Positions 2,365-46,643 of a stretch of 64,000 bases of DNA are shown here, piece by piece (position 1 is the stretch's first letter; every line of letters begins with the position of its first letter). The stretch covers positions 41,531,776-41,595,775 of the forward strand of contig NC_091188.1 in assembly GCF_040958095.1 (NCBI RefSeq). Reading direction: 5' to 3'. The DNA is from Procambarus clarkii. Lineage: Eukaryota; Arthropoda; Malacostraca; Decapoda; Cambaridae. The translations under genes and the position numbers were made by a program. The notes under the pieces are model-generated. The model was given only the letters and a program-made list of their open reading frames with translations. It was not told the DNA's origin and ran no database searches.

Positions 2365-2457
2365 TCAGGGTATTCCAAATGGAACAACTAAATCTTCTTT
2401 ATGCTCCACTTTAATGTGCATTAATGCTGCTACCACTTTCTGGGCTGAAGTAGTCAT
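2365..2457 (-). CDS. LAMTOR1: LAMTOR1 coding exon 6 (C terminus and stop)
   Basis: Acceptor TTTCCAG|, 30 codons plus TGA at 2367-2365. Encodes MTTSAQKVVAALMHIKVEHK and then EDLVVPFGIP. The (D/E)HKE-(D/E)LVV-x-FGIP end is conserved in the family. A long GTGA microsatellite lies 33 nt upstream of the acceptor. Confidence 0.92.
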   Translation of the reverse strand: MTTSAQKVVAALMHIKVEHKEDLVVPFGIP

Positions 2458-5400: not shown

Positions 5401-8400
5401 GACTAACTACTCTCCACTTCACACACTCTTGCGGGTGGGCAATTACCTATATTAAACATTCATATGCATATGTCCGTGTAGAGAATTTTATTGCGATTCC
5501 AATGATACCAAAATTAGCGATGTAGGACAACTGTAGGCTTCGCAACTATTAAGAGAGTGGAAACATTTTGTTGCTGTTTGGCGCTCTCGGCGAGTGATCT
5601 GCATAGTTTTTTATTTGGTGTTGATACTCCTTATGCTTGGGCGGCATTTTATAGGTATGCTCTTATAGACAATTTCATTGCGAACACAGTGATACCAAAT
5701 TTAAATACGTGCGCCTTCAATTATTGTCAGGACAGTCAAAAGAGTGTACACTTTTTGGTCTTACCTGGTAGGCGCGCGAAGTGCCGAAAGCATCTGGGGT
5801 ATTGTTTTTTTTTGAGCGCCGAGAGCGCGAAAGTGTTAAGGGTCCAGAATGAATGTTGTCACCATTTCATGTTTGTATTTACAGTTATTTGGTGTAGGTC
5901 ACAGTAATTTAACATTTTCTGCAACAGTTAACTACTTCTGTGGTCTACCTCCTCAAGCCAAACACAGCAGCCAAATATCTTTGGTACTCAAAATTTGAAT
6001 CAGTAATATTGTTTATATGAAAATTAACAAAAAAAGTCCTATAATGAATCAACACCAAACAAGGCCCTAAACCCGAGCCCGAAATGCTACACGTACTAGT
6101 GGCTGTACAAGAATGTAAAAACTCTTGTATATATAAATACTGTAAATAAAAAAAAAAAAACAGTGGGTCGAGTTATTCGTTGTCTAGCACATTATTGACA
6201 TTCTCTGCAAGATATGGCTTTGTATTAATATTATTGTCATTATTATATTATGATGGAACTCATAACTCGAGTTAAGGACTTGATGCTGGGATGACTGGTC
6301 ATTCAGCATTGGAAAGTCTGTACTAAAACATGATGGATAACAAATGCATGGATTGCATTAAACGTCTTGGCACGATCACTTTCACAAACCAACCACTTCG
6401 GTCCTGGGTTGAGAATTACCTACAACTATCTGCCTAGGCATGAAGAGTCTGAAATGTTCCTTCATTCAATTTTCTAATGTACTGTATCAGCACTTCAATC
6501 TAATATAGAATAAAAATAACCAATCAAAGGCTTATTTAAACAAACATTATTAGTGTTTAGACCTTATTGAGAATCTTGTGCAAATTTGTACCTGTAAGGA
6601 ACAAATTATTTTTAATTACATTAAAAAATCTTGCTTCCCACTGCACTTACCAAATTTAAATCTGCCACTGAAATTGGCTGGGCAGATAGTATTCTCTCTA
6701 CAGCTGGTACATCACACAATAGTTCAGCCTCATGGTGAGTTCTGCTGGGAATCTGAAAGCAAAATTTTTCAAGTTAATAACAACAAATTAATTAATTTAT
6801 TGGCAAGAATTTTCTAATAAACCCAATTCCCACGTGACCATTCACTTGGCAATTACTAAAAGCCGAATTAATTTCACCATGCTCATTATTCAACTCAGAA
6901 TTTGTGCTCATGTAAATCTTCATATATCTTAGACATATGCTCTTCATGCATTGTTCCTTCAGGAAAACTTCCTATCCTAGGTGGAATGGTTACATGTAAA
7001 GCTGCATTTATACATTTGAAGTCCCTTGAAACATTAGGGACTTGCAGGCGAAGAGTCACAATAACGTGGCTAAAGTAAGTTGACCAGACCACACACTAGA
7101 AGGTGAAGGGACGACGACATTTCGGTCCGGCCTGGACCATTCTCAAGTCGATTGTGAAGAGGAAGTAGATGCAGGCAATAAATAGGCTAGAGAGAGGTGA
7201 GGAGCAAAGTGTAGTAGAGGAGATAGTAGTAGGAATAAGAACTGCAGAGGGCCTATTGGCCCATACGAGGCAGCTCCTATTATAACCACCGAATGAGAAG
7301 AAGATAGTACAATACAATACAATACAATTTTATTTAGGTAAGGTACATACATACAATAAATTTTTACAAGGATTGGTTGACTTATAGGTAGAGCTAGTAC
7401 ATACAATGCCTAAAGCCACTATTACGCAAAGCGTTTCGGGCATGATAGGAATGAGAAGAGAATAGTAAGGGAACGTAAAGAAAACAAAAAACAGAGAAGA
7501 GAGAAGAATCAATTAAGGACTTGAATAGTACCAGACATCTTTGGCGTCAAGTCATAAAACAAGGCATTTCTCTCAAAAAAAAAAATAAAACAAGTAGTTT
7601 GACATGCAATATATTTATAAGCATATAACTACCTCTAGCAAGCATACAAAAGTGAAAATCCAAATCAAGTAACGTGAATGTTAGACACAAACACATTCAA
7701 AGAGGAAAGAAGCCCCCCTTTTATATCCCTCCATGTGGTAGTGTATGTGTGAGTGACTATAACCAAACACATTACTGTATAACATCCTCATCATTACCCA
7801 ATTTTCCCCCTCCCCCCCCCCCACTCTTCTCATGGAATGGGGGAAGCATCAGTCTAGAAATTACAGTAGAGTAAGAGTTTAAATTATTAGATATACAGTA
7901 CAGTATTTATTTGCAGGAATATGAGCTCGCCCCAATTTCAGTTTGCAGCAAGTTTTGGACACAGTTCATACAAAAATATTTGCACCATGATTTTAAATCG
8001 AACCCTGAAGTTCAGCTATCACTTTAAAACACCAATTGTATTCACATCCAAAATTACTAACACAAACTTTTATGGCTTAATAAATTCCCATTCAAAATTA
8101 CTATATTAACAGAGTATGTTATTCTTTAGAGGCAAGGTTTGTGGCAGAATTTTTTATTTTAAATAAGCATGCAGAGCTGCATGGAAAAGTTATGGGCTGA
8201 TAGTAATATGTATACAGTATTGTCTCTCCCAAGACTTTCCAACAATGCCAGGCATTGAAATTGCTGTTTACGTTACATTTTTGGTAAAAAAATTTATCAT
8301 GCAGCAGTTTCAAAAGCCATAGGAAGAGCTACAGTTGCAGGCCATGCAAACCAATAAAATAGAGCATATTAAGCAACATTAAAAATACTTACCTCAGAAA

Positions 8401-11400
8401 GGCAAAGTAATCTAACAATTTACCTTTTGTGGTGGTACAGTATTGAGGCGTTGATTATACGTCCGCACCCTGTCTATGTACTCGTGCTGTTCTAAGGTGT
8501 GGCAGTCCAGAGCTCCCACATCAATAATGTTGCTGTAATATAGCAACATCATTAATGTTAAGATTATAAAAATCTTTTTATTTACTTTCCCAGCTTCCTC
8601 CCAATTATTTAAAAAAACCTTCATTAAAAAACTGGCGATGAATGTAATGAAATGCCATTTTCTAGGGAACCCCAGAGGCTCTCTGAAGCTATCCAGACTG
8701 ATATGTGCTATAATTAATTGAGAACATCAGTTATGGGAGTTCTTGCCTACCGGGGACCACGAGCCAGAACCTGGGCCCCCTCAGAGGCACAGGGAGCAAT
8801 AGCCATATGAACACTTCATTTAGAATATGTCATGTCTGACATTGACTGGGAAAAGCACCCAGAAAGGTAGGAGAACCAATACAAACCCTCTACTGGTGAA
8901 AATTGCAACCCATGTCCAAAAAGAGCCAAAGAACTCCCCCAAATAAATACAAACAAGCAAATCGTCATCCAACTAGTGTGCCCGCTCGTTAGTGCCCCCG
9001 GCTTCCCTGAAAAGGGGGGGGGGGGGAGAGAAGCCTGCTCAGGCGAGTCGGCAGCTCAACCCTCCAGATCGTAGAATGATGACAACTGCTGACTGGAGGG
9101 AGGGAAGGAGGGAGGAAGGGAGGGAAGGAGGGAGGAAGAGAGGGAAGGAGGGAGGAAGGGAGAGAAGGAGGGAGGAAGGGAGAGAAGGAGGGAGGAAGGG
9201 AGAGAAGGAGGGAGGAAGGGAGAGAAGGAGGGAGGAAGGGAGGGTGTCAAGAAGCCTCTGGGTCTCAACCAGAAAATGGCATTTCATTACTTTCAATGGT
9301 AGTTTTCTGTGGGGAGCCCCATTGGCTCCCTGAAGCTAACTACCCACAGGTAAGTAAAATTGAGTCAAAGCAACACAAGTCTAGAGAGGGCCTGAAACGT
9401 TGACAAGATACTGGCGTCCAGGACCCTGTTTGATTTACAAAACCCTTGTGCCCGAATGCCAACCCAAGAAATATTCCCAAAGACAGCAGCGAGAGCAGCA
9501 TATTTCCTCACATCATGGGCACGAGAGTAGACTGCAGGCTGGCTAGACTTGATAACCTTGCAGACAACCCGAGACACACGAGCCCTGGAACAGGGAACCA
9601 GGGAAACCGGATCAATCCAGAGCACATCCACTGTCACTGAACCAGTGGCCCGCACGAGTGTCGTAAAACCGCAACCGGACACAAAACATGATGCATTCCT
9701 AGCTTAACCAACCAAGCTTCAACAACCCACGGAACCCTTCGGAAGCCAGCCGTCTCATTCTTCGCCAGAAAAGAAGGAGAGGGCTACAAACTAACAAATC
9801 GACCCCTAGGACCAAAGAGCAGAAACACCTGCGCCAGAGAAGAGCATGAAGCTCCCCAACCAAACTCCCATAGGCTAAAGCCATCAAAAACAAAGCTTTC
9901 ATAAAATAGTCATGAACCGAAAGGGCCACCCAGAAACAAACTGAGAGGAGAGGAACGAGAGCACCTGGTCCAAAGAAGAAGGCTCCTTCTCGAGAAGAAG
10001 CTGGACCTGTGCCGGACCTGTGAGTTGGTCATCCGAAAGGAGGGGCAAGGAATCAAATGGTTCAGATGGGACAAGTCCAGAATGAACCGAAGATCCGCAC
10101 AGTCCTGTTTCGGAACTGGAAACAAGTGGGAAACCACTTTGAGAGACGAAGTCGTTTTGACCACACTCAAGCGAACCCACTCCAAGACGACCAGACAAAG
10201 ACACAGGGAAGAAGCTTGACATACCAGCCCCAAACCTGCCAATGGAGGATGAGCCGCCCAATGTCGCCACAAGCCGGTAGAGACGACCTAGTAAGCCCAC
10301 AAATTGTATGTGGGGGCGGGTGAAGGGGTGTGTGTAGGCAAGGGGGAACAAGTCAGACAACACCTGTACAGCAGGGGTGTGGGGGAGGGGGTAGTATGTA
10401 TGAAGGGGGGGGGAAGGAGTGTGTAGGGAAAGGGGAACAAGTCAGACAACATCTGTGCAGCAGGAAATCCATAAAATTAACAAAGATATTTATCACAGTC
10501 ATGCTATGCTATGATGATACATGCAAGATACATCTTAAAATGGCTGCATAATGTATACCAAAGAGTATATTATGCATATATAATGTATAGTATAAACATA
10601 CCAAACTGATCAATTATGCATTCCTTATACACTGAAGGTGGATCTACTTACAAATTTACTCTTAGTTCCGCCTTACAAACATCAAACTTTATTACCTCAA
10701 AATATTCTTTATTAACTATATTACAAAAACTAAAATTTAAGTACTTGTGTTACATATAAAGTAGGACAAGACACTGACTTTGGGAATATATATATTCATG
10801 TTCCACCATAATTCTAATAAAATTATGTCTAATATTAACAAGGTCTAATTTTAATCATGAAAATAACAAAAAATCATGCAATAACTCTTGTGTGCTACTG
10901 GTGTCAACAAAGAAGCTAACCTGGCTGTCTGCTGCAGAATGCGATTGAGAGCCGTCTGCTCATCGGATTTTTTGGTGGCAGAACTTGAATAGTGGTTGCC
11001 ATATTCACCGGTGCTGGAATATACCATCAGTTGCATTATCAAGAAAAAATATTTTGATTTAAATTAAACACCTAGATTTTTTTCAAAAGTAGAAATCAAC
11101 TTAAATTGTATTCCCACTAAAACAGAAGAAGAAAATCCATTGCTTATAAATAACCTAACACCAACACAAAAATTACATTTCATTAAAAGTGACGATGTTT
11201 CAGTATGTCTTTTAAAACCAATATACTTTCCAAACTGTTTCTACTGCTTTAATAAACATATTTTTCATGTCCACTCCTCAACATTGTGTGGTACCCACAC
11301 AACAGGGTACACACTACCATTCCTTTATGCAAATCCCAACTACATTGTACTATCATAACTTTTTTTAACGAGAGCCTTTGTTGCATCCAACAATTTCCTT

Positions 11401-13323: not shown

Positions 13324-13362
<39 letters not shown>

Positions 13363-13597: not shown

Positions 13598-16500
13598 GGA
13601 AAATGTATTATTATGAACAACTGAAAAACTGCTGAAACAGTATCAACCAGGTACCAATCAGTCAACAGTACCAATCAACCAGGTATCAGTCTATAGAAAA
13701 ATAAGAAAACAAATCCCCAATTTCATACTCCATGAAAAAATTTGGAGCCAATATTTCTTAAAGTGGGCACTGGGGCTGACCCCGACAAGTCTATGACACT
13801 CCCAAATTACCCAGTGTCATCTTGAAAAGTTGGACGAGACTAGTTCCAAGTGTCTGACCTCCAACCTTGGACAGACATCTTTTATATAGATAAATAAATA
13901 AAATGTAAAACCTCTCTCCATTCATGTTTATTTCAACCACAACATTTACTTCTCTCCACGTCACCATAACTTTGTCCAACATTAACATTTAACAACCTAC
14001 CTTTCATGAAGGACCCCATCCATGTATACAACATGTTTTTAGTCCACCACCAACTGAATATATGTTGTATTTACATGCACAAAAATCATGGACTTACTCT
14101 ATAAAACCACTTGAAAATCACTAATAATAAAATTTTGATGAAGTACACTAAATTATTATTCTTTTTTTTCCACAAAATAGCCTTGTAAGTTAAGTATATT
14201 ATAAACCTCAAAATATAATAAACTGCATTAATATCAAACCAATCACTAATTACACAATTTCCTTTTCCACAGGCACTACTTCCTACATAAATTCAGCTAT
14301 AATAAACCTTTAATTTTTATTACTGTACCTTGAATTAACCTGGTAAGCATTGCTGACCGATTCACTTAGTAGACGAGTCCTCTCATTGACCTCACCGTCC
14401 TGCTAATGAAAGACAAGTTTAGCATACGCTTTTTCAAACTTAAAGAAAAAATTCTTAAACGTGTTTTTTTACACTTTCACATTCTCACGACACTAAAACG
14501 TGTCATTCGTACTCCGACAGAAACATTTCAATGATGCTAAAATGAGTCATCTGGTTGTTATTCATGAACATTCATATATACATCACTTTTGTGCATGTTC
14601 TATTAAAAATATATTTTTGTTTTTGTCCTCTAGAGAATTAATTTGCAAACTTTCTGGCACCAAATTCATAGTAATAAGTGAACAAATAACAAAGAAAACA
14701 TAAAATGATTGTAAACATTTTAAGCATAGCTGAGCGAGGGAGGCCACACACAGGAGAACGTTCACTGGGAAGGGAAAGGTCCACTCAGTGCACAACATGT
14801 AGGCCACCAGATAAAAAATATATACTGTACTTCATTTTAGTAGGGAAATACATATGAAACTTGTATATACAGTTCTAATCTTTAACAATTATTTGTAATA
14901 ATACTAGCTACTTTGTATGTTAATATTCTTTTCATGTAACTTGTGTTTTGAACAAAGGATGCCACATGTTGCTCACTAACAACAGTAAAGCCCAGCACAA
15001 TAAACTTTCTATATTTTGTTTGGCAGGAAATCCTCAAATAAAATAAATCTCAGATTAAATAATACCCAAATTTGTAACAAAATAGATGGCAAATTCGTTG
15101 GCGTTCTCATTGACCACAAACTGAATTTCCAGGGACACATTCTAAATATATCAAAAAAGTTTCAAAAACTGTTGGCATTCTTTCTAAGATCAGATATTAT
15201 GTACCTCGCCATGCCCTAGTGACGCTCTATTACTCCCTCATCTATTCTTATCTCAACTATGGTATTTGTGCTTGGAGTTCTACTACCCAAAATCATTTAC
15301 GTCCTCTAATTACTCAACACAAAGCTGCTATTGGGACAATATACAACTCTGGCCCCAGACATCCCTCAGTACCTCTTCTCAAATCTCTGAATATGTTAGA
15401 TATTAAGTCACTGCACATCCTCTTATGTGTATTATATATATATAAAACGCTGAACTGTAATGCCAATCCTGACCTTAAAAGCTTCATTGAAGGTTGTAAC
15501 AGAACCCATGAGCACCACACCAGAAACAAATACCTTTTTGATATTCCAAGAGTACGACTTAATCAAACTAGGAATGCTCTACAAATCAAGGGGCCCAGAA
15601 TGTGGAATGACCTTCCCAATCATGTTAAAGACTGTACCTCTCTTAACCAGTTTTAAGATGAAAACTAAGCACTACCTAATTAACTCCCTGTAACCTATCT
15701 TACCCCTATAATGTCAACCCATGTTTGTTATTTTTAAACAATGCTGTTTGTTGACCAAATTATATTTTTGCTGTTTTCCTGCCATGTTCCCCCTTTTTTA
15801 TTTTTATATTTTCTCAACACATTTTATACTTTAATCTCAATTAGTATTAAGTTATAGTCTTTAGTGTTTTTCCTGCCCGAAACGCTTTGCATAATAGTGG
15901 CTTTAGGCATTATATGTACTAGCTCTATCTATAAATTCATCAAAATCTGTATCACCCCTCATATGTATGTACTTTACCTAAATAAACATTTGAATTTTTT
16001 TTTTTTAATAAATATAAATAAATATATATTTATTCAGGTATAAGTACCTGTACCTACATACAAGATGAGTTACAAACACAATGTTAAATTTCTAGATAGA
16101 GTTAGTAAATACTGTACTATGCCTAAAGCAACTAATACGCACAGCATTTTGGGCAGGTAATTTGGATTTCTTCTGAATTAAGAAATTATCAAAAGAATGC
16201 AAAAAGCTGGAAAGAATATGTAGCACTGCAGAATGTCCACATTAAGTAAACTAAAACTTGGACTATTTTCGCTATACCCAAAGCACTGTGGCTTATACAC
16301 AACTGATTAGTCAGTAGCTATTACTTAATTGTAACTGGATGGGTGACCATACGGCACAGCTTCGCCGAAGTATTTCCGTCTCCAACAGGGAAACAAAGAT
16401 ATAAAACAATCAAAAGCTATCACAACGTTTAAAATACGCGCATAGAGGCATAAGTGTAATGGCATTCTTATTATCCTAAATGGTGAAAATAGCGCCGCCC

Positions 16501-16750
16501 ATGACAGCCTTCAGGCTCAGTAAACCTAATTACAGTACCACAGACCACTAGTTTCAAGCTCGGTAAACCTAGCTAGAGAGTAAACAAGTCAGGTATGGGC
16601 GGGTTCTTGAGCACACATGAAGACTAGCCATTGCATGCACGCTCTCATAACGAACCAGCTTTTGACTTCCTGTTAACGAGTGTCAATAATACCGAGTTAT
16701 TCCAGTACCTGAGAATGAGTCTCTTGCTCGGTGCTGCAACAACATCCCAT
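2365..16750 (-). CDS. LAMTOR1: LAMTOR1 (p18), late endosomal/lysosomal Ragulator scaffold subunit, six coding exons
   Basis: LAMTOR1 is the lipidated scaffold that wraps the other Ragulator subunits and holds Rag GTPases on the lysosome for mTORC1 activation. Coding exons on the minus strand are 16750-16709, 14402-14329, 11013-10921, 8532-8424, 6752-6651 and 2457-2365. They sum to 513 nt, 170 residues plus TGA, close to the 161 aa of the human protein. The N terminus MGCCCSTEQETHSQ carries the Gly2 myristoylation and Cys3/Cys4 palmitoylation signals expected of the family. The middle has DEQTALNRILQQTASNIIDV and LEQHEYIDRVRTYNQRL, matching the conserved helix around EQHEYMDRARQY in vertebrates. 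The C terminus ends HKEDLVVPFGIP, the conserved family end. All junctions use GT/AG and keep frame (phases 0,2,2,0,0). The introns are large and full of transposons. The divergent neighbour is SEH1 (+). Identification is strong; exon edges are by eye. Confidence 0.93.
2490..2554. repeat. (GTGA)n tetranucleotide microsatellite
   Basis: About 16 uninterrupted GTGA units. It lies in LAMTOR1 intron 5, 33 nt upstream of the exon 6 acceptor. On the gene strand it reads as repeated CTCAC. Confidence 0.95.
2750..3950. other. Unrecognised intronic sequence, probably old repeat
   Basis: More GC-rich than its surroundings, with several short open frames of at most about 80 codons on both strands and no domain I recognise. 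It may be a decayed mobile element. Confidence 0.3.
4165..4262 (-). repeat. CR1-like LINE 3'-end fragment
   Basis: TTCACCTAGTTG repeats followed by a GCTGAGCTTTGCTCTTTCGG-type segment. The same sequence type ends the CR1-like pseudogene at 17240-17340, so this is a 5'-truncated 3' UTR in minus orientation. Confidence 0.65.
4270..4475 (-). mobile_element. tRNA-derived SINE, family A (partial)
   Basis: On the minus strand it has a box-B-like GGTTCGATTCCC near 4420 and then the family body (ctgctagataacaggggcat on the plus strand). Its head (CCCCGCGGCCCGGTCCTCGA) is missing and it abuts the CR1 tail. Other copies are at 45846, 47636, 49238 and 50385. Confidence 0.7.
4757..5839. mobile_element. 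piggyBac-like nonautonomous element with TTAA target duplication
   Basis: Terminal inverted repeats CACTTTCGCGCT (4761-4772) and its complement ending at 5835 are directly flanked by TTAA on both sides (4757-4760 and 5836-5839). There is no transposase ORF. Inside, a diverged unit recurs about every 185-205 bp near 4908, 5093, 5278, 5483 and 5665 (aatttTattGcga... ggtaccaaa type). The TTAA duplication is typical of the piggyBac superfamily; the assignment rests on that and the TIRs. Confidence 0.65.
6060..6160 (+). mobile_element. SINE family B, 3' part
   Basis: Holds the shared 3' sequence GGCTGTACAAGAATGTAA and CTCTTGTATATATAAATA, followed by an A-rich tail. The tRNA-like head seen in the copy at 29777 is missing. 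Confidence 0.65.
6651..6752 (-). CDS. LAMTOR1: LAMTOR1 coding exon 5
   Basis: Exactly 34 codons (102 nt), phase 0 on both sides, between CTTTCAG| and TTTG|GTAAGT. Encodes IPSRTHHEAELLCDVPAVER and then ILSAQPISVADLNL. The LSAQPISVADL part aligns with LASEPIPFSDL of human LAMTOR1; the first half is diverged. Confidence 0.88.
7040..7290 (-). repeat. Penelope-like UTR fragment
   Basis: Contains the block around gacgacatttcggtccggcc and cattctcaagtcgattgtga (plus strand), and the palindrome GGGCCTATTGGCCC at about 7250-7263. The same blocks occur at 13361-13535 and near the Penelope-like element at 21060. Confidence 0.5.
7318..7444 (-). mobile_element. CR1/L2-type LINE 3' tail
   Basis: Minus-strand copy of the last 125 bp of the LINE at 21480-25265, covering the CCCGAAACGCTTTGCGTAAT block to the TAAATAAAATTG end. 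It is flanked by (AATAC)n. Confidence 0.85.
7445..8423. other. LAMTOR1 intron 4 remainder; nothing recognised
   Basis: AT-rich. A C-rich run lies at 7808-7822. No domain, TIR or SINE head was seen. Confidence 0.5.
8424..8532 (-). CDS. LAMTOR1: LAMTOR1 coding exon 4
   Basis: The acceptor is TTACAG|C and the donor is AAAAG|GTAAAT. The exon encodes NIIDVGALDCHTLEQHEYID and then RVRTYNQRLNTVPPQK. It holds the EQHEYxDRxRxY signature, the most conserved stretch of the family. Confidence 0.93.
9095..9243. repeat. Purine-rich minisatellite (GGGAGGAAGGGAGAGAAGGA type)
   Basis: Nearly pure G/A on the plus strand, unit about 20 bp. It lies within the DIRS remnant next to its 3' terminal piece. Confidence 0.9.
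9365..9929 (-). pseudogene. DIRS tyrosine recombinase fragment
   Basis: FMKALFLMALAYGSLVGELH matches the first conserved box of the YR domain, but the catalytic Arg appears replaced (GSLVGELHAL instead of G-x-RVSELHAL). Further on, SRAHDVRKYAALAAVFGNIS holds the H-x-x-R box. A frame break near 9690 separates the two parts. The missing Arg and the frameshift indicate an inactive copy. Confidence 0.68.
9930..10272 (-). pseudogene. DIRS reverse transcriptase N-terminal fragment
   Basis: Encodes SHLFPVPKQDCADLRFILDL followed by SHLNHLIPCPSFRMT, the start of a DIRS RT (family form: PLFxVPKKDGSxRxVxDLxxLN). It stops before the catalytic YxDD region. Confidence 0.7.
10300..10465. repeat. G-rich 89-bp duplication
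   Basis: AACAAGTCAGACAACACCTG at 10347 recurs as AACAAGTCAGACAACATCTG at 10436, within a G-run-rich stretch. Confidence 0.7.
10921..11013 (-). CDS. LAMTOR1: LAMTOR1 coding exon 3
   Basis: The acceptor is TTCCAG|C and the donor is CCAG|GTTAGC. The exon encodes TGEYGNHYSSSATKKSDEQT followed by ALNRILQQTA. DEQTALNRILQQTA aligns with DEQALLSSILAKTA of human LAMTOR1. Phase is 2 in and 2 out. Confidence 0.9.
11014..11719. other. LAMTOR1 intron 2, gene-proximal part
   Basis: AT-rich. A short direct repeat of GATGCAACCCATCCAA / CAACCCATCCAAGG lies at 11450-11500. Nothing else was recognised. Confidence 0.4.
11720..12891. repeat. CT-rich minisatellite, about 30-bp unit
   Basis: About 40 units of the form CTCTCTCCTTGGCCTTCTCT plus GCCCCCC. 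Unit length varies (27-33 bp) by CT and C slippage. It gives long spurious open frames on both strands. It lies in LAMTOR1 intron 2. Confidence 0.95.
12892..13119 (+). mobile_element. Interspersed repeat inserted in the CT-rich minisatellite
   Basis: Starts TTGAGGTTACCTTGAGG and shares the TGTCCCCGCGGCCCGGTC / GACCAGGCCTCC head with SINE family A. It then diverges (gctgctcgcagcctgatgta, tcctttggaggtgcttatcc). Minisatellite units resume after it, so it is younger than the array. Confidence 0.65.
13120..13312. repeat. Continuation of CT-rich minisatellite
   Basis: Five to six further units of the 11720-12891 repeat, with longer C runs and a (C)TGATCTCTCTCCTCGGCC variant. Confidence 0.9.
13326..13594. 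repeat. Two (TA)n tracts flanking a Penelope-like UTR fragment
   Basis: (TA)n occupies 13326-13360 and about 13536-13594. Between them (13361-13535) is the block CACAATCGACTTGAGAATGG and GACCGAAACGTCGTCGTCCC, the reverse of the 7040-7150 copy. Confidence 0.75.
13600..14328. other. LAMTOR1 intron 2, exon-2-proximal part; nothing recognised
   Basis: AT-rich. A short duplicated CAGTACCAATCAACCAGGTA-like stretch lies at 13640-13690. No coding signal. Confidence 0.4.
14329..14402 (-). CDS. LAMTOR1: LAMTOR1 coding exon 2
   Basis: Encodes QDGEVNERTRLLSESVSNAY followed by QVNS and two bases of the next codon. The acceptor is a tandem TAGCAG, so the exon could start at 14402 or 14399 (one Gln fewer). 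The donor AG|GTACAG gives phase 2, which joins exon 3 in frame; an upstream GTTAAT at 14339 would not keep the frame. The NERTRLL part matches the dileucine-type lysosomal sorting region of the family (REERKLLL in human). Confidence 0.85.
15003..16010 (+). pseudogene. 5'-truncated CR1/L2-type LINE copy (RT C-terminal part)
   Basis: Matches the last third of the 21932-24913 ORF. It starts at the FGxKSSNxINL region and runs through HKLNFQGHILNIS, YLNYGICAW and WNDLPNHVKDC, then the 3' UTR with CCCGAAACGCTTTGC. The frame is broken near 15160 (a base lost in the AAAAAAGTTTC run) and by other changes. It lies in LAMTOR1 intron 1. Confidence 0.9.
16015..16160 (-). mobile_element. Diverged CR1/L2-type 3' tail, tail-to-tail with the preceding copy
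   Basis: On the minus strand it has a diverged form of the family 3' end (CCAAAATGCTGTGCGTATTA in place of CCGAAACGCTTTGCGTAATA) and the TTAGGCATAGTACAG block. Confidence 0.7.
16709..16750 (-). CDS. LAMTOR1: LAMTOR1 coding exon 1 (start codon, lipidation signal)
   Basis: The ATG is at 16750-16748 and encodes MGCCCSTEQETHSQ, 14 codons. The donor is CAG|GTACTG, phase 0. Gly2 and Cys3-Cys5 fit N-myristoylation plus palmitoylation. This start is chosen because the MGCC motif is diagnostic of the family. Confidence 0.9.
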
Positions 16751-16880
16751 TGAGAAGATTAATAAGAAAAGTCTTCAGCAGGTTTGAGTCATATGACCGA
16801 GAGTCAGACGACAACAAGGTTCAGCTGGGATAGGTTCAGCCAATCACAGCTCAGGACGACTCTCAGCCAATCAGAGGCCG
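16751..16880 (-). promoter_or_regulatory. LAMTOR1: Putative LAMTOR1 5' UTR / proximal promoter
   Basis: Directly upstream of the ATG is a perfect palindrome, GTCATATGAC, at 16788-16797. It differs from the TFEB/CLEAR consensus GTCACGTGAC only in the two central bases. Two CCAAT boxes lie at 16840-16844 and 16867-16871, 27 bp apart, each in the context CAGCCAATCA. The transcription start is not visible. That these sites act on LAMTOR1 is inference. Confidence 0.45.
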
Positions 16881-17144
16881 TTCTTCCTACAACAACAAGG
16901 GATCTAAACTATAACGTTAGTTTTTTTTTTTTTTTTTGCACAATGTGCATAGTTCACCGGCATAATATTTGTCAGTGAATAATAATTAGTATTAATTAAT
17001 AATAATAATACGTAATATATTACAGTTAATATAGCATTAACGTTGCATTTTCTAAATGTATTACTCTATTTTAGGTACAGCGTTTCGGGTTATAAAATTA
17101 GATTATTTTTGGCCGCAACGCAATACGTGTTAGTGGCTTAGACT

Positions 17145-17222
17145 CGTAACTGTGTGACTCACCATAGATGTGAAGTGCCTTGTATAGTGACTGTTGTGAG
17201 CCTCTTGTTGAATCACTTGTGA
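17145..17222 (-). repeat. Dispersed repeat, inverted partner at 62486-62562
   Basis: About 78 bp (TGTGACTCACCATAGATGTG, GAGCCTCTTGTTGA) that is nearly the reverse complement of 62486-62562, with a few mismatches. The family is not recognised. Confidence 0.75.
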
Positions 17223-17239
17223 TATAAAAATATTATTAA

Positions 17240-29538: not shown

Positions 29539-29692
<154 letters not shown>

Positions 29693-30376: not shown

Positions 30377-30487
30377 ATGTTTGTGGCTCGCAGCCTCACC
30401 GCTGAGCACAAGGACCTCATCCATGATGTGGCCTTTGACTTCTACGGACGACGCATGGCGACGTGTTCCAGTGACCAGAGTGTCAAG
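30377..30487 (+). CDS. SEH1L: SEH1 coding exon 1
   Basis: 37 codons, MFVARSL to CSSDQSVK, donor AAG|GTGAGG, phase 0. This is the first WD40 strand set. A 19-bp minisatellite begins within about 10 nt after the donor. Confidence 0.93.
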
Positions 30488-33400
30488 GTGAGGTTACTCT
30501 CGTGGTCACTCAGTCCTCCCTGTGGTGACTCAGTCCTCTCGTGGTCACTCAGTTCTCTCGTGGTCACTCAGTCCTCTTGTGGTCACTCAGTCATCTTGTG
30601 GTCACTCAGTCCTCTCGTGGTCACTCAGTCGTCTCGTGGACACTCAGTCCTCTTGTAGTCACTCAGTCATCTTGTGGTCGCTCAGTCCTCTCGTGGTCAC
30701 TCAGTCCTCCCGTGGTCACTCAGTCCTCCCGTGGTCACTCAGTTCTCTCGTGGTCACTCAGGTTCCCAGCAGTCGGGTACACCAAGGCCTATTCCTGCCT
30801 TGTCCAGGTCTCTCCATGGTCAAGTACTGACCCTCCGCAGGATGCAATTGCCAACTAGTGGATACCTGGTATCCACTAGTTTTGTTTTATTTTTTTATTT
30901 ATACAGTATATACAAGAGTTCTTACTCTTGTACAGCCACTATAGCACTTATAGCGTTTCAGGGAACGTCTTTAATCCAATTTTTCCCTGGAATATGACCC
31001 GCCAAATTGTTTAACAACTAGGTACCCATTCATTGTTAGGTGAACACAGGCTACAGTTAAGGATTTGTGCCCAGTAAATCCTCCCTGGCCAGGATTCGAA
31101 TCCAGTACAAAGAGATCGTGAAACGACAGGCAAGCGTCTTGCCACTTAGCCATGGGGATTGTGACATAGTGGATCAACCTGTCCTCTTACAAATTATGTC
31201 ACTTTTCGCTCATATGCATTACAACCAAAAAAGGCCATACTGGTAATTTGAAAATGAAAAATAATTTAAAATTTTGGATTTTGTTTCCCAAAAAACTGCA
31301 AGTTAAGGGTCCTCTGGTAGGTCATGAGGGCAGGAAGTTCTAAGGTTTCAAAACGTCATGAAAACTGTTAAATGAAAGTTTCCTCGTCTAATCTAAGAGA
31401 TTAAGCCAGAGGACCCAAAACAGAAAGCAGTACAGTTCAGTTTAGTTCATTTATTATGCACCCCATACCCATCCAGTCAGCATGTCATTTTCGTGAGCCG
31501 ATTTGACTTTGAATTACATAAATTTTTATCCTGAGTGCGCAGACGAACGAAAAGCGACGTAATATGTAAGAGGACGGACTGAGTGGATACCACCTACGAC
31601 CACCTTGATAATGATCCAGGACAGGCCGAAACGTCATCGTCTGTTCATCTTCTGGTGTGGAGTTATTGATCATATCTTTAGCCATGTTATTGCGACTGTC
31701 TGCTAGTGGATACCTGTTTACTGCTCCTCGAACAGAGGCATCAGGTGAAAGGAAGCATTGCCCAAAGAACTGATTTTCTTCAGTTGTGGCCTGACTGCCC
31801 AACCTGTCCTCTTAAAAATAATGTCAGTTTTGGCTGTTTACCCGTATGGCCGAAAGTGGACATAATTTGAAAATGAAAAAAAAAAATGAAAATTGGGATT
31901 TTTTTTTTTTAAACAACAGTAAGTCTAGGGTCCTCTGGTAGATTAGGTGGGCACGAAATTCTCATAAAGTTTCAAATCGTTATGAAAAACGTTAATTGAA
32001 AGTTTCCTCTCCTAACCTTTCCAGGTAAGCCAGACGACTCAAACAGAAAATGGGACAGTACGTCACTTTTGTGAGTCGATCTCATTTCAAATTATGTCCA
32101 CTTTTGGCCATAGTGCACATACGAGCCAAAAGCGACGTCATTTATAAGAGGACGGGTTGGACTGCCACAGGATCATATTTATTTTATTCGCTGAATATAT
32201 CTTACTTTTGTCAGCAGCGATGTATCTTATAAAATTATGATGCCCAATATTGGATTTTTAAATTCTTGCCTAAAAGAAGGTTATCTAGTATTTCTGAGAG
32301 GAGCCCCTTCGGCTCCCTGGAAGCTATCGAGCTACTATGCGATATATTAGACCAGGGCATTAGTCAATGGAGTTCAGTCTACCCGGGACCATGAGCCAGA
32401 ACCTTGGCCCCCTCAAAGAGGACACAGGAGCAATTGGATCCTGGAAAAAAACTGTGGTTGGGGGTTTTCTTAATCCGCCATCGACTGGGGCTAGGCACTC
32501 AGAAAGGTAAGCATAACATAACAAACCCCATTTGGTAAGAAAATTGCAACCGAAAACAGAACAGAGAGGCAGAACTCTCCCAGATCCCAAGGAAGCAAGC
32601 AGTCGTCACACCTTGCAGCTGCGATGTTTGTCCATGCAGCTCTCCCCTTCCCTAGGAGGGGGAGTTATAATTGTAATTTATAACTGTTGATTTTTTCAAT
32701 TTTTTATAATTGTTGTATAGGATACATTATACAGGTAGTTGTGATATAGTCATGCAGTCATCGGCTTATAACCAAGGGAGCCGAGTTCAGTCCTCGGTAC
32801 AGGACAGAAACAATTGGGTATATTTCCTTTCACCTGATGTCACTGTTAACTTAGCAGTATTTAGGTACTGGTGAGTATATTGTGGGTCACATCCTAGGGA
32901 AGGTCAGTAGTTGATGTAAGAAAATCTTGATAAGCCTAAGTACAGGATTCCTGCCCCCTATCAACAAGAATTATATATTATTTTATAGAATCTATTATAC
33001 TGTTCCTCATCTATTGTCATATTTCTTGCATTCATCAGCCAGATTCAATTATTGTTAGTGATAACATTTTTAAGAACCTTTAATAGCTAAAAGAAATTGT
33101 GTTGTGATTTTACCTCACTCTTCTAATTCATGTAATATTTAGTTAAAATGTTTCCGAGAGGCAGGTAGGAATTATTTCCTTGTTTCATACATTAGTACAT
33201 TAAGCAGATCTGGGACCTGAACGAGGATGGGGAATGGGTGTGCTCTGCATCTTGGAAGACTCACTGTGGCTCAGTGTGGAAAGTGACTTGGGCACATCCT
33301 GAGTTTGGCCAGATCATTGCTACTTGTTCCTTCGACCGAACAGCAGCTATATGGGAAGAAAGTGGTAAGTTTTTATAATGATAAATTTGTTATAAATATA

Positions 33401-36400
33401 CCTCTTAACCCCTCAACTGCGCCGGCCAACAAATGTCGTTATAAGAGTTGTATATTTTTTTTAATTAGGCTATATTTTAATGTTTTTTAAGGTATTCATT
33501 ACTCTTTGCATTTTGAAATGAAAATAGTTTAGTTTGGAAACATTTTGACATTAACTTTACCTGAACATTTATAAAAACAACAAAAATATATATCCTTAAC
33601 AATTGCACTTTGAAGTTTTTGCCAAACCAGGTGCGCAGTGCAAGGGTTAAAGGGTGTCATATTGTGTGCAAATGAAGATTTTAACAATGTGTTGAAACTA
33701 CTAGTTTTTGAGTAGTGTACTGGTCAACAACAGCTTTCATATTGGTTGAATTTTCTTGTGTCCAAGATTATCCTGAACTAACCAGGTGAATCATCAGGTG
33801 AAAAGGATGTTTCTTTTGGCCATTGATAATGCTTTGGTATGGTGATATCATTAACAGACATCATTGTTTCATTTGAGATAGTTTAATGGCATAGATATCA
33901 AAATAAATTTTATATTTTATTTAATTTATATATTATATTTTGCTTTTTTTTCTGGGTGAGATAATAAAATGTCGTATGTCTTACTTAGAATTTGTTGCTC
34001 TTGTTTGTAAACATTGTCATTCTGATAATAATGCTTGACATTTTGGTCGTGTTGTCCAAACAGTAAAAGTGTCAAAAGTTGCTCTCATCACTATACAGCA
34101 AAACTAAATTTATCTTTGAAAGTTCTACCTATAATTTATAAACAAGCTTTGTATTTTGAAGTTCATTGTAAATGGGGTGGGTAATCCAAAACAAAAAATA
34201 AAAAGCCTGTATACACTTAACATTATTACTTGGTTTGCTAACCACTAGTTTCCAGTATTTTTTTGTTATGCAGTTTTTGGTTTGTATAATATCAGTGTAC
34301 CTTTCAAATGGTCAACAATGTTTTCTTTACTCTTAAGATGCCACATAGAAGAAAAATCATGTTTACTCACATCAGTGTTGTTATTGAATAAAGTGTTCAT
34401 CCACCCATCTATTATCATTACTCTATTTTCAACTTACATAAGATGGGGAGGCATCAACCCAGAGGTAAAAGATGAATAATACTGTATATTGAAAGGTTAT
34501 AGTATTGAAGAAACGAAATATACTGTACAGTATCACACTTCCATTCATTTTAGCCTTCCTTTCACCCGTCCATCCCCAAATCCGTATCCTGATCCATTCC
34601 CAGTGCTGTAGTCAAAATGGCTTGGCACTTTCTCCTTATAGTTTCCTTCCCTTCATTATATCATTTCACACTACATATAGTAGCATCACAGTTTAACAAT
34701 TATCCACACACACTACTTTAGTTTGATTACTTCAATGTTGAGTTTGCTATTTGGTAGTGTTTACACTGTATTTCTTCCCCTGCTTTCCTTTGGCACTGGC
34801 CTTACTGACTCACTGCAGGGTTGAGCCTCTTTAAGGAAGCATCCAAGGCCAAGTATCCTGACTTCATCAGTGCTTCAGGAAAAAGATTCTTAAACTTGTT
34901 GCCAATGTAGAAGCATGGCAAGAGGGGCACAAGGCAACTATCTTCTAAATTTGTAATATGCACTAAGCATTGTATCCCAAACAGGGGTATCTTGAGCCTA
35001 ATAGAAAAAGGATTAAATCGACATGCTTAAGTTGATTTTCATTAAGGGAGGCATCTGCCCTCGTCACACAAGAAAAAATTGAAATATTTTCCTGTTTAAT
35101 GATACTACTGTACAAGAGAAAACATACACAACTAATGACTCTGAAGCAAAAGAAGACATAACCCAGCATGCACTTGCATGCATAAGCTCAAAACTATGTT
35201 AACTCATGCTGAGTGACCTCACTTGGACAGCCAAGTCAGACAGCACTGTACAGATTTGACTTAAAAAGTCTCCCCACAAGAAGAAACACAGAAATATCAG
35301 AGAAGATATTTCTGGTGGCAGTCAGTCTTTGCTGACAGTGTCAGGGAAGGAGATCTTGTCGCAGAGTCAAAGCAGAACAGGAGCAAGCCACATGCAAAGG
35401 ATCTGGCATACATGTGCTGAAGTGTCCCAAGTATGGACACACAATATAGAACATAATGTCATGGTTTACTCTGGGAACCGGTTAGTTGTTTCCACATTTG
35501 CTGCACATGAGAGTATGATGAAAAGGGGCTACTTTTTCTTGATTATCAGGTGGCTCATGGTAATAGAATTTGTCTGGGATTCAGTAGTTCAGTTACAATG
35601 AAGTTTGACATGTTCAAATTAATTCTTTTCATTATGCTATGCAGAATTTCTATGCAATAAATATTATGCACATGTGGTAAACAACCTCATCCACTATATT
35701 AAAATAGGTGAGTTAAGTTTAGATTTGTTAGTGAAGCATATTATCTCTATCAACAATATCTCAGATCTGTTTTTTCTGTAGTCAGTGACTCAGGGCATGG
35801 TGTCCACAGCACATGGATCAAGCGAGCTGGTCTGGTGGACTCTCGTACCTCTGTTATGGATGTCAAGTTTGCCCCTAAGATTCAGGGTCTACAGTTAGCC
35901 ACGTGCTCCGCTGGAGGGGTGGTAAGTTTGGAATAATTTAACGTTGATTGAAATGCATAGTTCTGGTTCTGTAAGAATTACATCAATGGTGCTGGTCATT
36001 TAAGCTGTAGATTTATTGGCTTGGAGTAAGGTTCAGAATCATAAACGCAATCAAATAGCACTGGATAATTTTCTGTTCTCTCAAATAGGTGCGCATCTAT
36101 GAAGCCCCTGATGTAATGAATCTTAACCAGTGGTCACCACAGTACGAGATGAATTGTAAACTACAGTGTTCGTGCATCTCTTGGAATCCTTCACCTTCTA
36201 GGTAGGTGAAATATAATATATATGAGATAGATCACATGGTTGCTTTCTTGGGTAGTGTCTTCCTTTCCTTAAGGACAGGATCAAACACAGCTAGGAATGG
36301 TCAACATTTACTTCCTGGTGATGTAGGGAACTATTCGATATACAGCTTTGTTATGAGACTGATAGCTGCATTGCAGAGTTGTTTGCTGGTTGTAACAGAG

Positions 36401-39400
36401 GCAGAGGACAGGTGTACAAAGAGTAGGTAGACTCTTTGTCTTGACTCTGACTCTTTGGTAGACTAGTAGGTAGATTAGTGAATAGTTCTGCACTGGAAGT
36501 ACTCAGTGCTAGTGGAATTCAGGTGAGCGTGCTTCATTTCCCTTTTAAGTGTTGCATTTAGTGTGATTTATTTTCTTATATAAATGAATAATACCCATTA
36601 AATTTATTAAATAAAGGCAATTATAAATGTACAATCATTTAAAAATAATGGTATTGATTGATTGCTGGTCAGCTTTATTTTTTTTTAGAACAGTTCATGT
36701 GTTAAATTGATTTAATGTACCTTAAGAGATTAAGTGATATTTTTATTCTCACAATGCTTTGTTATACAAATTTTGAATTACAAACTTTGGTATTTCATTA
36801 TTTTCAGGCTTCATTCACCCTTAATTGCAGTAGGTAGTGATGACCCTAATCCTGCCTCAGGAGGAAAGGTGTTCATTTATGAATTTTCGGCCAATACTCA
36901 CAAGTGGACGAAAGTGGAAACCTTGGTGACTGTGACGGAGCCTGTACACGACCTGGCTTTTGCTCCTAATCTAGGACGGTCGTATCATCTGTTGGGTATT
37001 GCCACTAAGGATGTCAGGATTATAGCACTTGAAGCCTGCCAAGTGAGTCATAGCTTGCTATTTCCAGATATTTACAAGAAAACAAAGCTTCATATTATTG
37101 ATATACTGTATAATTGTTGTGGACCTGTTGCTTGGATAACAGCTTCTTATCAACCTACTCTGGCTTTGCAAACTGGAGAAGCCACTACAGACCGACAACC
37201 AGAGCGCAACTCCATAGTCTCCCGAGACTCATGGATGCCTACTACTGTTATATTATTTTTCCACAAAATTATATACATGTTAGTGGCTTTGCAAGAAGAG
37301 TACCATTTTCATAACCAAAATCTATTTCTTTCACTGCCCATTGTACTTTCTTGTACATTTGTTTGTATGTATGAAATCATAAAATTGTATCTTATATGCA
37401 ATTTTTTGTTGTTGTTGTGTGTTTTGCATAAGATATGCTATTGCTGTATCCTCTCTTGTTGCTGACAGAGAAGACCCAACTCAAAACCAAGGCAGTTTGT
37501 CAACCTTTGAAGTGCGTCAAGCAGGGCAGTTTGATGACCATGGCTCCACAGTGTGGCGGGTGTGCTGGAACATGACAGGAACCATCCTGGCTTCCTCAGG
37601 AGATGACGGCTGTGTTCGTTTGTGGAAAGGTACAGTTGTTACCATAATATTATCATTATGACATGTGGTAATCTCTGTTAATTAGGTGTTAAAAGTAAAG
37701 ATACCTTAGTGTTTTGTTTTGATATTTTTTTAATGTCCTTCCCTGTTTCTGCTTGAGGAAAACATTTTGGTTGTTATTGAAATTGAACACTGAAGTCCCA
37801 TGGCAACAATTTTGTTATTTTTATTATTAAATTTCTGTGCAATATTTTGAGTCTCATTGGTGCAATTTGAAAGTGATATCATTTATGTATGATTATAAAA
37901 CTAAAGTTCCTTTTGTTACTGGGCAATGTAGCCTAAATGGCAACTGTTTTCTGAGCTGAAGCCTCTTGGTTGCTCTTGTAATAAGAGTCTATACCTGGTA
38001 TGGTCCACTTAATCCATCATCCGATGCCAGACTCTGTGCAGCTTAACCTTCTACCATGACTGGAGACTTTGCAAATGGCCTTGCTATATAATTAGGGTAG
38101 GAAAATAGTAAAGTCCTTTCAACCTACCACTGATTGACTGACTAGCTATATCACACAAGTAATGCTCATTATGCTCAACACACCCTCCAAGTCATAATCA
38201 GGAACCCAAGGAACAGCATTTCTCTGCAAACAACTACTAAGCTAAGTCGGGTTTTGTAACGGGGTAGGATGGTCCTGAGACCTGTGTTTGCAGAGGTGTC
38301 CTCATGCCTCCACTGCTGTTTGAAGGTGGCCTCAGTGTCTCCACTGTGTTTGAGAGGTGTTCTGGTGTCTCCACTGTGTTTGAGAGGTGTTCTTGTATCT
38401 CCACTGTGTTTGAGAGGTGTTCTGGTGTCTCCACTATGTTTGAGAGGTGTTCTGGTGTCTCCACTGTGTTTGAGAGGTGTTCTGGTGTCTCCACTGTGTT
38501 TGAGAGGTGTTCTTGTGTCTCCACTGTGTTTGAGAGGTGTTCTGGTGTCTCCACTGTGTTTGAGAGGTGTTCTGGTGTCTCTACTGTGTTTGAGAGGTGT
38601 TCTGGTGTCTACTGTGTTTGAGAGATGTTCTGGTGTCTCCATTGTGTTTGAAAGATGTTCTGGTGTCTCCACTGTGTTTGAGAGGTGTTCTGGTGTCTCC
38701 ACTGTGTTTGAGAGGTGTTCTGGTGTCTCCACTGTGTTTGAGAGGTGTTCTGGTGTCTCCACTGTGTTTGAGAGGTGTTCTGGTGTCTCTACTGTGTTTG
38801 AGAGGTGTTCTGGTGTCTCCACTGTGTTTGAGAGGTGTTCTTGTATCTCCACTGTGTTTGAGAGGTGTTCTGGTGTCTCCACTGTGTTTGAGAGGTGTTC
38901 TTGTATCTCCACTGTGTTTGAGAGGTGTTCTGGTGTCTCCACTATGTTTGAGAGGTGTCTCCACTGTGTTTGAGAGGTGTTCTTGTGTCTCCACTGTGTT
39001 TGAGAGGTGTTCTTGTGTCTCCACTGTGTTTGAGAGGTGTTCTCGTGTCTCCACTGTGTTTGAGAGGTGTTCTTGTGTCTCCGCTGTGTTTGAGAGGTGT
39101 TCTGGTGTCTCTACTGTGTTTGAGAGGTGTTCTTGTGTCTCCACTGTGTTTGAGAGGTGTTCTTGTGTCTCCACTGTGTTTGAGAGGTGTTCTTGTGTCT
39201 CCACTGTGTTTGAGAGGTGTTCTTGTGTCTCCACTGTGTTTGAGAGGTGTTCTTGTGTCTCCACTGTGTTTGAGAGGTGTTCTTGTGTCTCCACTGTGTT
39301 TGAGAGGTGTTCTTGTGTCTCCACTGTGTTTGAGAGGTGTTCTGGTGTCTCTACTGTGTTTGAGAGGTGTTCTGGTGTCTCCACTGTGTTTGAGAGGTGT

Positions 39401-45400: not shown

Positions 45401-46643
45401 TAGTCGATCACTTATCTGACTGCCTCTACATAATAATGGTTTTTGTCTTGGTGTGGGTTGAGTTTGATCTCAATCTGCTTTGCCTCTTCACTGATGCAGT
45501 ACAGGTGCAAGTCCATTTTGGTGCAAGGCGCACTGCATCCCTTACTTTTATGAAGATGACAAAGTCTTCCGCATAGTTTAGCAGCCTGCAGTGTTGTGGG
45601 AATTTCATCCTCATTATTCTTTCCATTAAACAGTTGAACAGTAGAGGGCTAAGAATGCTTCCTTGTAGTGTACCATTTTCATGTCCTTTGCATTCAAAGA
45701 CTGTGCCATGAAGTTTCGCTTCTCTGTTTATGAGACAGTTTTTGGTTCCGGAGAGCAGGTTGCCTTTGACCTCTTTGTCGATGAGGTAGCAGAGAATAGT
45801 TGGGGTGCTAGCCAGTTCAAAGACTTTCTCGAGGAGTAATGAGGTAGGTTATCTTGAGATGATTTTGGGACTTAGTGTCCCCGCGGCCCAGCCCTCGACC
45901 AGGCCTCCACCACAGGAAGCAGCCCGTAGCCGCTGTCTAACTCCCAGGTACCTATTACTACTAGGTAACAGGAGCATCAGGGTGAAAGAAACATTTGCCC
46001 ATTTGTCTCCGCCTCCACTGGGGATCAAACCCGGAACCTCAGGACTATGGATCTGAAGTGCTGTCCACCCAGCTGTCAGGCGCCCTGTGTTAAGGGCATA
46101 TATATGCTTTAACATTTGGGGTGAATGTTTGGCAAGTGCATCCTATAGCCTGGAACATTATCAGGATACATGAGAATCAGTTTGGATTTTATATGAACAT
46201 GTTATTCAATATCTTACCTTCACAGAGTTCAGTATTTGTGACAGTTAAAAAATGAAATGGCAAAGGGCAGTGAATGGGATTCACAGAGTGGCTGAAAGCC
46301 TTAATCGGAATTTGTATTATTCATATCGACTGACTTAAATTAGGAGCCATTGGGAGCAAATACTTAGCTAATGAAATACTAGTATTTGTATGTCTGAATG
46401 TCAGTTGAGAGCATAAAGACTTATGTCCTCAGTATTATAAGAAATATTTTATTTTCAGCAAATTATCTTGACATATGGAAGTGTATCTCAACTCTCCGTG
46501 GTGAAGCTGTAGAGAATGTGGCAGAGGTTGGGACTTCGGGGGGTTCTTCACAGCAGTCGGGAACAACTGGCATGTCACAACACACGGCAAGATATTTCAA
46601 GTTGGCACCCACGGCACATCCGGCACATGTACCGTGGCATTAG
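30377..46643 (+). CDS. SEH1L: SEH1 nucleoporin / GATOR2 subunit, WD40 beta-propeller, seven coding exons
   Basis: SEH1 is an open six-bladed WD40 protein that pairs with NUP85 in the nuclear-pore Y complex and with MIOS in GATOR2, which relieves GATOR1 inhibition of Rag GTPases. Coding exons: 30377-30487, 33208-33364, 35782-35921, 36089-36201, 36808-37046 (or 37042), 37471-37629 (or from 37469) and 46459-46643. The frame-keeping choice sums to 1104 nt, 367 aa; human isoforms are 360-421. The start [20 protein letters not shown] is the family N terminus. Other family-specific stretches are [66 protein letters not shown] and [20 protein letters not shown]. The C-terminal tail is low-complexity and weakly conserved. 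Intron 6 is 8.8 kb and filled by minisatellites. The exon 5/6 junction is uncertain (see findings). Confidence 0.93.
30496..30762. repeat. 19-bp minisatellite in SEH1 intron 1
   Basis: About 14 units of TCGTGGTCACTCAGTCCTC with few changes. It starts almost at the exon 1 donor. The overlapping open frames are repeat read-through. Confidence 0.93.
30885..31160 (-). mobile_element. SINE family B copy, minus strand
   Basis: Reverse complement of the family: the 3' end (ACAAGAGTTCTTACTCTTGT) comes first, then GACCCGCCAAATTGTTTAAC and the box-B complement GGATTCGAATCC near 31090. Confidence 0.8.
31175..31581. mobile_element. MITE copy 1 with 7-bp target duplication
   Basis: Starts CAACCTGTCCTCTTA and ends TAAGAGGACGGACTG. 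Flanked by AGTGGAT on both sides (31168-31174 and 31582-31588). No ORF. It is in SEH1 intron 1, adjacent to a SINE. Confidence 0.8.
31800..32159. mobile_element. MITE copy 2 with 7-bp target duplication
   Basis: 360 bp. Starts CAACCTGTCCTCTTAAAAAT, ends ATTTATAAGAGGACGGGTTG. The inverted ends extend about 50 bp with mismatches (GCTTTTGGC, GTATGGCC / GGCCATA). Flanked by GACTGCC on both sides (31793-31799, 32160-32166). Confidence 0.88.
32295..32600 (-). repeat. DIRS terminal-like fragment
   Basis: Shares GAGGAGCCCCTTCGGCTCCC, GGAAGCTATC and GGGACCATGAGCCAGAACCT with the 8650-8800 terminus of the DIRS remnant. No coding part. Confidence 0.6.
32601..35781. other. SEH1 introns 1 (end) and 2 apart from exon 2; nothing recognised
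   Basis: AT-rich. No repeat family, RNA gene or further exon was recognised. A small hairpin-prone stretch is present near 35250. Short open frames are spurious. Confidence 0.5.
33208..33364 (+). CDS. SEH1L: SEH1 coding exon 2
   Basis: Acceptor TTAAGCAG|, donor GTG|GTAAGT, phase 0 in and 1 out. Encodes [40 protein letters not shown] and [12 protein letters not shown], near-identical in pattern to human SEH1. Confidence 0.93.
35782..35921 (+). CDS. SEH1L: SEH1 coding exon 3
   Basis: Acceptor TTCTGTAG|, donor GTG|GTAAGT. Encodes [40 protein letters not shown] and TCSAGGV. Phase 1 in, 0 out. Confidence 0.92.
36089..36201 (+). CDS. SEH1L: SEH1 coding exon 4
   Basis: Acceptor CAAATAG|, donor CTAG|GTAGGT. 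Encodes [20 protein letters not shown] and [17 protein letters not shown] plus two bases. Intron 3 is only 167 bp. Confidence 0.92.
36808..37046 (+). CDS. SEH1L: SEH1 coding exon 5 (3' end uncertain)
   Basis: Acceptor TTTTCAG|. Encodes [60 protein letters not shown] and [19 protein letters not shown]. The strongest donor, CAA|GTGAGT after 37042, puts exon 6 out of frame with either acceptor. The weaker GTCATA donor after 37046 restores the frame. Confidence 0.85.
37471..37629 (+). CDS. SEH1L: SEH1 coding exon 6 (5' end uncertain)
   Basis: Encodes [40 protein letters not shown] and [12 protein letters not shown], donor AAAG|GTACAG, phase 1. Two adjacent acceptor AGs (37467-37468 and 37469-37470) are available. 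The final WD40 blade lies here. Confidence 0.87.
38282..42432. repeat. 4.1-kb minisatellite, 30-bp unit, in SEH1 intron 6
   Basis: About 137 units of CCACTGTGTTTGAGAGGTGT plus TCTGGTGTCT. The main variable site is TCT(G/T/C)GTGTCT. A 22-bp short unit (ACTATGTTTGAGAGGTGTCT) marks 38941, 40253 and 40605, and the variant pair ending GAGAGATG / GAAAGATG recurs at about 38627-38655 and 39933-39970. These show segmental duplications inside the array. The unit is a multiple of 3 without stops, so frames over 1000 codons run through on both strands; these are not genes. Confidence 0.98.
42455..43470. repeat. 1-kb minisatellite, 51-bp unit, adjacent to the 30-bp array
   Basis: About 20 units of CCATCCCTTTTGACTCGGGC, ATGTCTCATGCAGGATGTTC and CCCACTGACT(G/A). 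Variants: GCAGGATG/GCTGGATG and TCCCCACTGA/TATCCCCTGA. Separated from the 30-bp array by only about 25 bp. Confidence 0.97.
43480..44625. other. SEH1 intron 6, unrecognised sequence
   Basis: No domain or repeat family was recognised. Short open frames up to 90 codons on both strands look spurious. Confidence 0.4.
44630..45845 (-). pseudogene. Non-LTR retrotransposon ORF2 remnant: RT end plus RNase H
   Basis: On the minus strand [18 protein letters not shown] (from about 45690) is followed by the catalytic box as YAEDFVIF, where the second residue pair is E-D instead of D-D. Then, in another frame (45089-44631), an RNase H domain: [36 protein letters not shown] and [10 protein letters not shown], with D, E and D in the expected places. 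RT with a C-terminal RNase H suggests the I/Jockey/R1 group. It sits in SEH1 intron 6. Confidence 0.8.
45846..46088 (-). mobile_element. SINE family A copy
   Basis: On the plus strand GGTTATCTTGAGATGATTTT, TGTCCCCGCGGCCCAG, then GAAGCAGCCCGTAGCC and the box-B complement near 46020 (GGGGATCAAACCC). The SINE reads on the minus strand. It lies 370 bp before SEH1 exon 7. Confidence 0.82.
46459..46643 (+). CDS. SEH1L: SEH1 coding exon 7 (C terminus and stop)
   Basis: Acceptor TTTTCAG|. With the G from exon 6 it encodes [17 protein letters not shown], matching ANYMDNWKCTGILKG of human SEH1, then a Ser/Gly/Thr-rich tail ending AHVPWH and TAG at 46641-46643. Confidence 0.92.

Follow-up and report, generated by a model that had tools for sequence, protein, structure and literature searches.

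Within the window, the 64-kb stretch of DNA analysed here (positions 41531776-41595775 of contig C39, in an assembly that comprises 2308 contigs and 4.03 Gb), two conserved genes lie head-to-head. LAMTOR1 is encoded on the minus strand (16750-2365) and SEH1 on the plus strand (30377-46643), with 13,626 bp between their start codons. Both genes were detected by a translated search of the window with human proteins, and their exons are listed in Table 1 together with the features between them. A preliminary description of this DNA had placed the two genes in divergent orientation about 13.6 kb apart, and our measurement from start codon to start codon bears this out. The gene identities that it proposed are likewise upheld by phmmer matches to chains of solved structures: the LAMTOR1 product matches 6b9x over its full length (residues 1-169; 3.3e-25), and the SEH1 product, a SEH1-type beta propeller sequence, matches 7uhy over residues 1-336 of 367 (2.8e-157, against a cut-off of 1e-60).

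Table 1. Exons of LAMTOR1 and SEH1, start-proximal flanks and spacer repeats, in window positions
Feature	Position	Strand	Basis or remark
LAMTOR1 exon 6 incl. stop, C-terminal VVPFGIP	2365..2457	-	translated search, splice-site reading
LAMTOR1 exon 5	6651..6752	-	translated search, splice-site reading
LAMTOR1 exon 4 (SNIIDVGALDCHTLEQHEYIDRVRTYNQRL)	8424..8532	-	translated search, splice-site reading
LAMTOR1 exon 3	10921..11013	-	translated search, splice-site reading
LAMTOR1 exon 2 (DGEVNERTRLLSESVSNAYQVNS), 71 nt	14329..14399	-	motif search and reading
LAMTOR1 exon 1, start codon, N-terminus MGCCCSTEQETHSQ	16709..16750	-	GT donor next; MGCC aligns with LAMTOR1 chains
389 bp adjoining LAMTOR1 start	16751..17139		no other copy found (scope in text); two inverted CCAAT boxes
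Endonuclease/RT element pieces on minus strand, then RT element	17140..21166		repeats
AT dinucleotide array	21294..21418
Non-LTR retrotransposon frame, 1012 aa, endonuclease and reverse transcriptase	21875..24913	+	without internal stop
Further repeats	25271..29540		include 261- and 409-bp tandem arrays
Inverted 95% copy of 24237-24957	25932..26652	-	copied stretch is part of the 21875..24913 non-LTR element
AT dinucleotide array, 74 units	29542..29689
Short dispersed repeat	29775..30054	+	7358 first-look genome candidates
322 bp adjoining SEH1 start	30055..30376		no other copy found (scope in text)
SEH1 exon 1	30377..30487	+	translated search, splice-site reading
SEH1 exon 2	33208..33364	+	translated search, splice-site reading
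SEH1 exon 3	35782..35921	+	translated search, splice-site reading
SEH1 exon 4	36089..36201	+	translated search, splice-site reading
SEH1 exon 5	36808..37042	+	this 3' end leaves the join to exon 6 off by one base
SEH1 exon 6	37469..37629	+	translated search, splice-site reading
SEH1 exon 7 incl. stop	46459..46643	+	translated search, splice-site reading

The six LAMTOR1 exons have consistent intron phases and encode a product of 169 residues. Exon 1 encodes MGCCC, and thus the N-terminal MGCC start that is a predicted lipidation signal. The initial translated search did not pick up exon 2, which was recovered through its acidic, arginine-rich, di-leucine motif; its length supplies the phase needed by exons 1 and 3, and its translation lines up with the ER/LL stretch in LAMTOR1 chains. 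SEH1 has seven exons, and tandem arrays lie within its introns. A 19-bp array (30497-30761) starts ten bases past the end of exon 1, and in intron 6 a minisatellite repeats its 30-bp unit about 139 times (38282-42435), with 20 copies of a 51-bp unit coming next (42451-43469).

The SEH1 exon 5/6 junction and the integrity of the locus

If the expected splice sites are used, the join of SEH1 exon 5 to exon 6 is out of frame by one base. We considered an extra small exon between them and rejected it: the best of 20 candidates has an acceptor score of 8 and a donor score of 3, where the other SEH1 exons range from 8 to 12 for acceptors and from 4.5 to 8 for donors. None of the best ten of these 20 candidates has both sites in the normal range, and wherever a candidate's donor scores 4.5-6.0, its acceptor is weak. 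Three later exon 5 donors (scoring 6.0; 5.0, a GC donor; and 4.5) allow an in-frame join to exon 6, and the exon versions that use them gain 236, 248 or 326 bases that are not conserved. The exon 5 frame stays open through nearly the whole of the next intron (37043-37465, about 140 codons). Possible sources of the mismatch are an assembly base error, a real variant or a longer exon 5.

The same mismatch, together with the lack of a convincing small exon among the candidates, could mean that this SEH1 copy is decaying and hence that there is no working pair. However, the remaining exons are intact and strongly conserved, the later donors could restore an in-frame join, and no second SEH1 copy was found in a search of the same 4.03 Gb assembly in which 19 of 19 candidates were scored. 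That search returned ten matches, seven at the SEH1 exons and three on two other contigs (C66 and C24); the latter are pieces of 33-55% identity that we take for other WD40 genes. Because no other SEH1 copy was found, we consider it extremely unlikely that this one is dead. The corresponding search with LAMTOR1 (18 of 18 candidates scored, matches accepted up to E 10) found no second copy in the assembly and gave six matches, all on C39 and all at the six exons, with exon 1 alone a weak match (E 4.36). The LAMTOR1 query was read from these same exons, so their recovery is by construction and the search adds only the absence of other matches.

We also weighed the possibility that the two genes were brought together by an assembly join inside the repeat-rich spacer, where two AT arrays and tandem arrays of 261 and 409 bp offer places for one. 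Against this, the window contains no N at all, and a single contig of 43.4 Mb carries every LAMTOR1 and SEH1 exon. We regard such a join as very unlikely.

Repeat content of the spacer

That the spacer is filled with repeats, as the preliminary description had it, is confirmed by copy searches: between 17140 and 30054, at least 10,909 of 12,915 bp are multi-copy when disjoint pieces from the local and genome-wide searches are added. About 2.0 kb of this interval is without a demonstrated other copy, and part of that lies inside the 1012-residue retrotransposon frame, possibly a young LINE. With the local library of 264 kb only (the window joined to its flanks), another copy exists for 9,127 of the 13,626 bases in the spacer. 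In that library the same holds for 567 of 4,193 bases in LAMTOR1 intron 5, 98 of 2,364 downstream of LAMTOR1, 7,561 of 17,357 downstream of SEH1 and 7,173 of 8,829 in SEH1 intron 6, the last largely through its tandem arrays. Genome-wide searches added to the spacer repeats the segment 20000-20600 (601 bases, to which 39 other long copies are 94-96% identical), 395 bases of 25271-25670 and, starting at 26693, at least 786 bases.

Comparison of eight spacer frames with Pfam identified reverse transcriptase or endonuclease domains in three of them and no domain in four; the remaining frame has two matches that both fall below the curated cut-off. The leftmost block of repeats (17140..21166) contains RVT_1 at 18068-18820 and Exo_endo_phos_2 at 19412-19876, and its RT element is one that we take, by eye, to be Penelope-like. 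The short dispersed repeat next to SEH1 has a tRNA-like head by eye and is perhaps a SINE. Neither the Pfam comparison of these eight frames nor the 264 kb copy search led us to recognise a host gene between LAMTOR1 and SEH1. Transposable elements, LINEs especially, are described as active in Procambarus in the part of the source available to us (PMC10454600).

Start-proximal flanks, neighbouring genes and chance

Neither 16751-17139 nor 30055-30376, the stretches adjoining the two start codons, has another copy in the 264 kb, or genome-wide among the candidates scored (40 of 2248 and 40 of 7358, respectively), although repeats within both flank queries filled the scored places, so that copies of the outer 389 and 322 bp could be missed. 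Among these scored candidates, genome copies of the LAMTOR1-side query begin at query position 396, and no other copy of the SEH1-side query extends past position 365. Inverted CCAAT boxes stand at -94 and -121 from the LAMTOR1 start, and one stands at -316 from that of SEH1. Further, a 14-base word, TTGTTGTTGTAGGA, is common to both 5' flanks, in the same orientation relative to each gene, and occurs at just these two places in the 264 kb. The word was noticed post hoc and is close to a TTG repeat, and a shared word of 14 or more bases was present in 12 of 2000 random segment pairs; we count it as a weak hint against a chance neighbourhood.

A rival reading is that an ancestral bidirectional promoter once co-regulated the two genes as members of mTORC1 signalling and was kept by selection in this lineage before transposons stretched it, with its shared control partly left at the two ends. 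The divergent order, the roughly 0.7 kb at the spacer ends for which no other copy was found and the word common to both flanks would all fit such a history. However, inverted CCAAT boxes lie near the start on the LAMTOR1 side only, and the start codons are now 13.6 kb apart, far beyond the spacing of less than 1000 bp between starts by which bidirectional pairs are defined in the excerpts available of two studies (PMC2648788, PMC3552671). In addition, the human orthologues are unlinked, as far as the excerpts of two further sources go: LAMTOR1 is placed at 11q13.4 (PMC10759533) and SEH1L on a different chromosome, at 18p11.21 (PMC6779875). On balance, we hold an ancestral shared promoter of this kind to be unlikely.

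The wider neighbourhood was surveyed over 100 kb on each side of the window, 12.5 kb of which reads N. In the joined 264 kb, 187 of 421 open frames are without a second copy there, and ten flank frames picked by eye were compared with Pfam: three match MTHFR, one a zinc finger and one a retroelement protease, and five match nothing. The MTHFR pieces lie on the plus strand at window-relative positions +111705 to +132737 and comprise catalytic and SAM-binding domains. On the right, MTHFR is the nearest gene recognised, on a search of ten frames that may miss nearer genes and small exons; to the left, the C2H2 zinc-finger frame lies about 83 kb outside the window. To our knowledge, neither MTHFR nor a C2H2 zinc-finger gene belongs to mTORC1, and we count these neighbours in favour of the chance reading. 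Within the window to the right of SEH1, a tRNA call at 49410-49503 was set aside as probably repeat-derived, with four other partial copies in the window, and a CCHC zinc knuckle frame and a SCAN-like frame lie about 1.3 kb apart at 52946-56077, perhaps parts of a gag-type or domesticated element.

How often two genes of one pathway would become neighbours by chance was estimated by simulation under assumed inputs of 20,000-30,000 genes and pathway sizes of 28 and 50. For pathways of these sizes, at least one adjacent pair arose in 2-12% of runs and a head-to-head pair in 0.6-2.6%; for a set of 300 pathways with 50 genes each, the formula gives about seven head-to-head pairs. Because the present pair was picked out for looking meaningful, chance is the fair default. 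If the genome holds about 25,000 genes, as we assume, the mean gene spacing is about 160 kb, so that 13.6 kb is close; this fits a retained old neighbourhood, and we count it against the chance reading.

Interpretation and comparison with known systems

We conclude that LAMTOR1 and SEH1 are probably ordinary orthologues that are neighbours by chance in this lineage, with a spacer that has grown by repeat insertion. A promoter near its own start most likely drives each gene today. From the established roles of the two families, LAMTOR1 would hold Ragulator on the lysosome, with its MGCC start as the site of lipidation, and SEH1 would serve both the GATOR2 complex and the nuclear pore. The spacer would have expanded as LINE-type and Penelope-like elements, together with short dispersed and tandem repeats, were inserted; the repeats themselves are present, and we infer the order of events. 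If all of them came later, the two starts could have lain about 0.7-2.7 kb apart before the insertions, an arrangement that would need no pathway reason.

This bears on two suggestions of the preliminary description. The first, that insertions stretched a once shorter spacer, is consistent with the roughly 0.7 kb without another copy at the spacer ends, and we infer the stretching itself. The fit speaks weakly for an old shared promoter, because any transposon-filled spacer shrinks likewise when its repeats are taken away. The second, a functional linkage through mTORC1, is unsupported: the human genes are unlinked in the excerpts cited above, and chance should produce such an adjacency at some place in a genome. 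Beyond weak hints, a functional mTORC1 pair gains no positive support. More specifically, a compact bidirectional promoter might have joined the dosage of Ragulator and GATOR2 when the pair arose, and the pair might be conserved across decapods or malacostracans and still be co-regulated across the transposon-stretched spacer; we think this decidedly improbable.

In a limited collection of literature, we found no report of LAMTOR1 and SEH1L gene order, no joint mention of Nup44A with CG14184 (Drosophila LAMTOR1 in the excerpt available of PMC6971369) and no map position for Drosophila CG14184. In that collection, "bidirectional promoter" was absent for LAMTOR1/SEH1 among the matches listed, and a search for bidirectional gene pairs with crustacean and microsynteny matched an ortholog resource, available in part. 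As it stands, the locus is ordinary genome anatomy, with two conserved genes annotated and a spacer made largely of repeats. If other crustaceans keep the pair, linked control of two parts of the mTORC1 amino-acid branch would be suggested.

Set beside known systems, LAMTOR1 matches the Ragulator scaffold p18 along its full length, including the MGCC start, the HEYIDR core and the FGIP end, with nothing of note to distinguish it and ordinary divergence. SEH1 resembles the WD40 protein of GATOR2 and the nuclear pore, as its match over residues 1-336 of 367 at 2.8e-157 indicates, but differs in that its exon 5/6 junction, at the expected splice sites, is one base off in this assembly. More than 10% of human protein-coding genes stand in close head-to-head pairs, according to the excerpt available of PMC3552671, and we count this in favour of chance neighbours. 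The present pair shares with such bidirectional pairs a divergent orientation with no host gene recognised between its members; it differs in spacing, which, measured on start codons, is 13,626 bp rather than less than 1000 bp.
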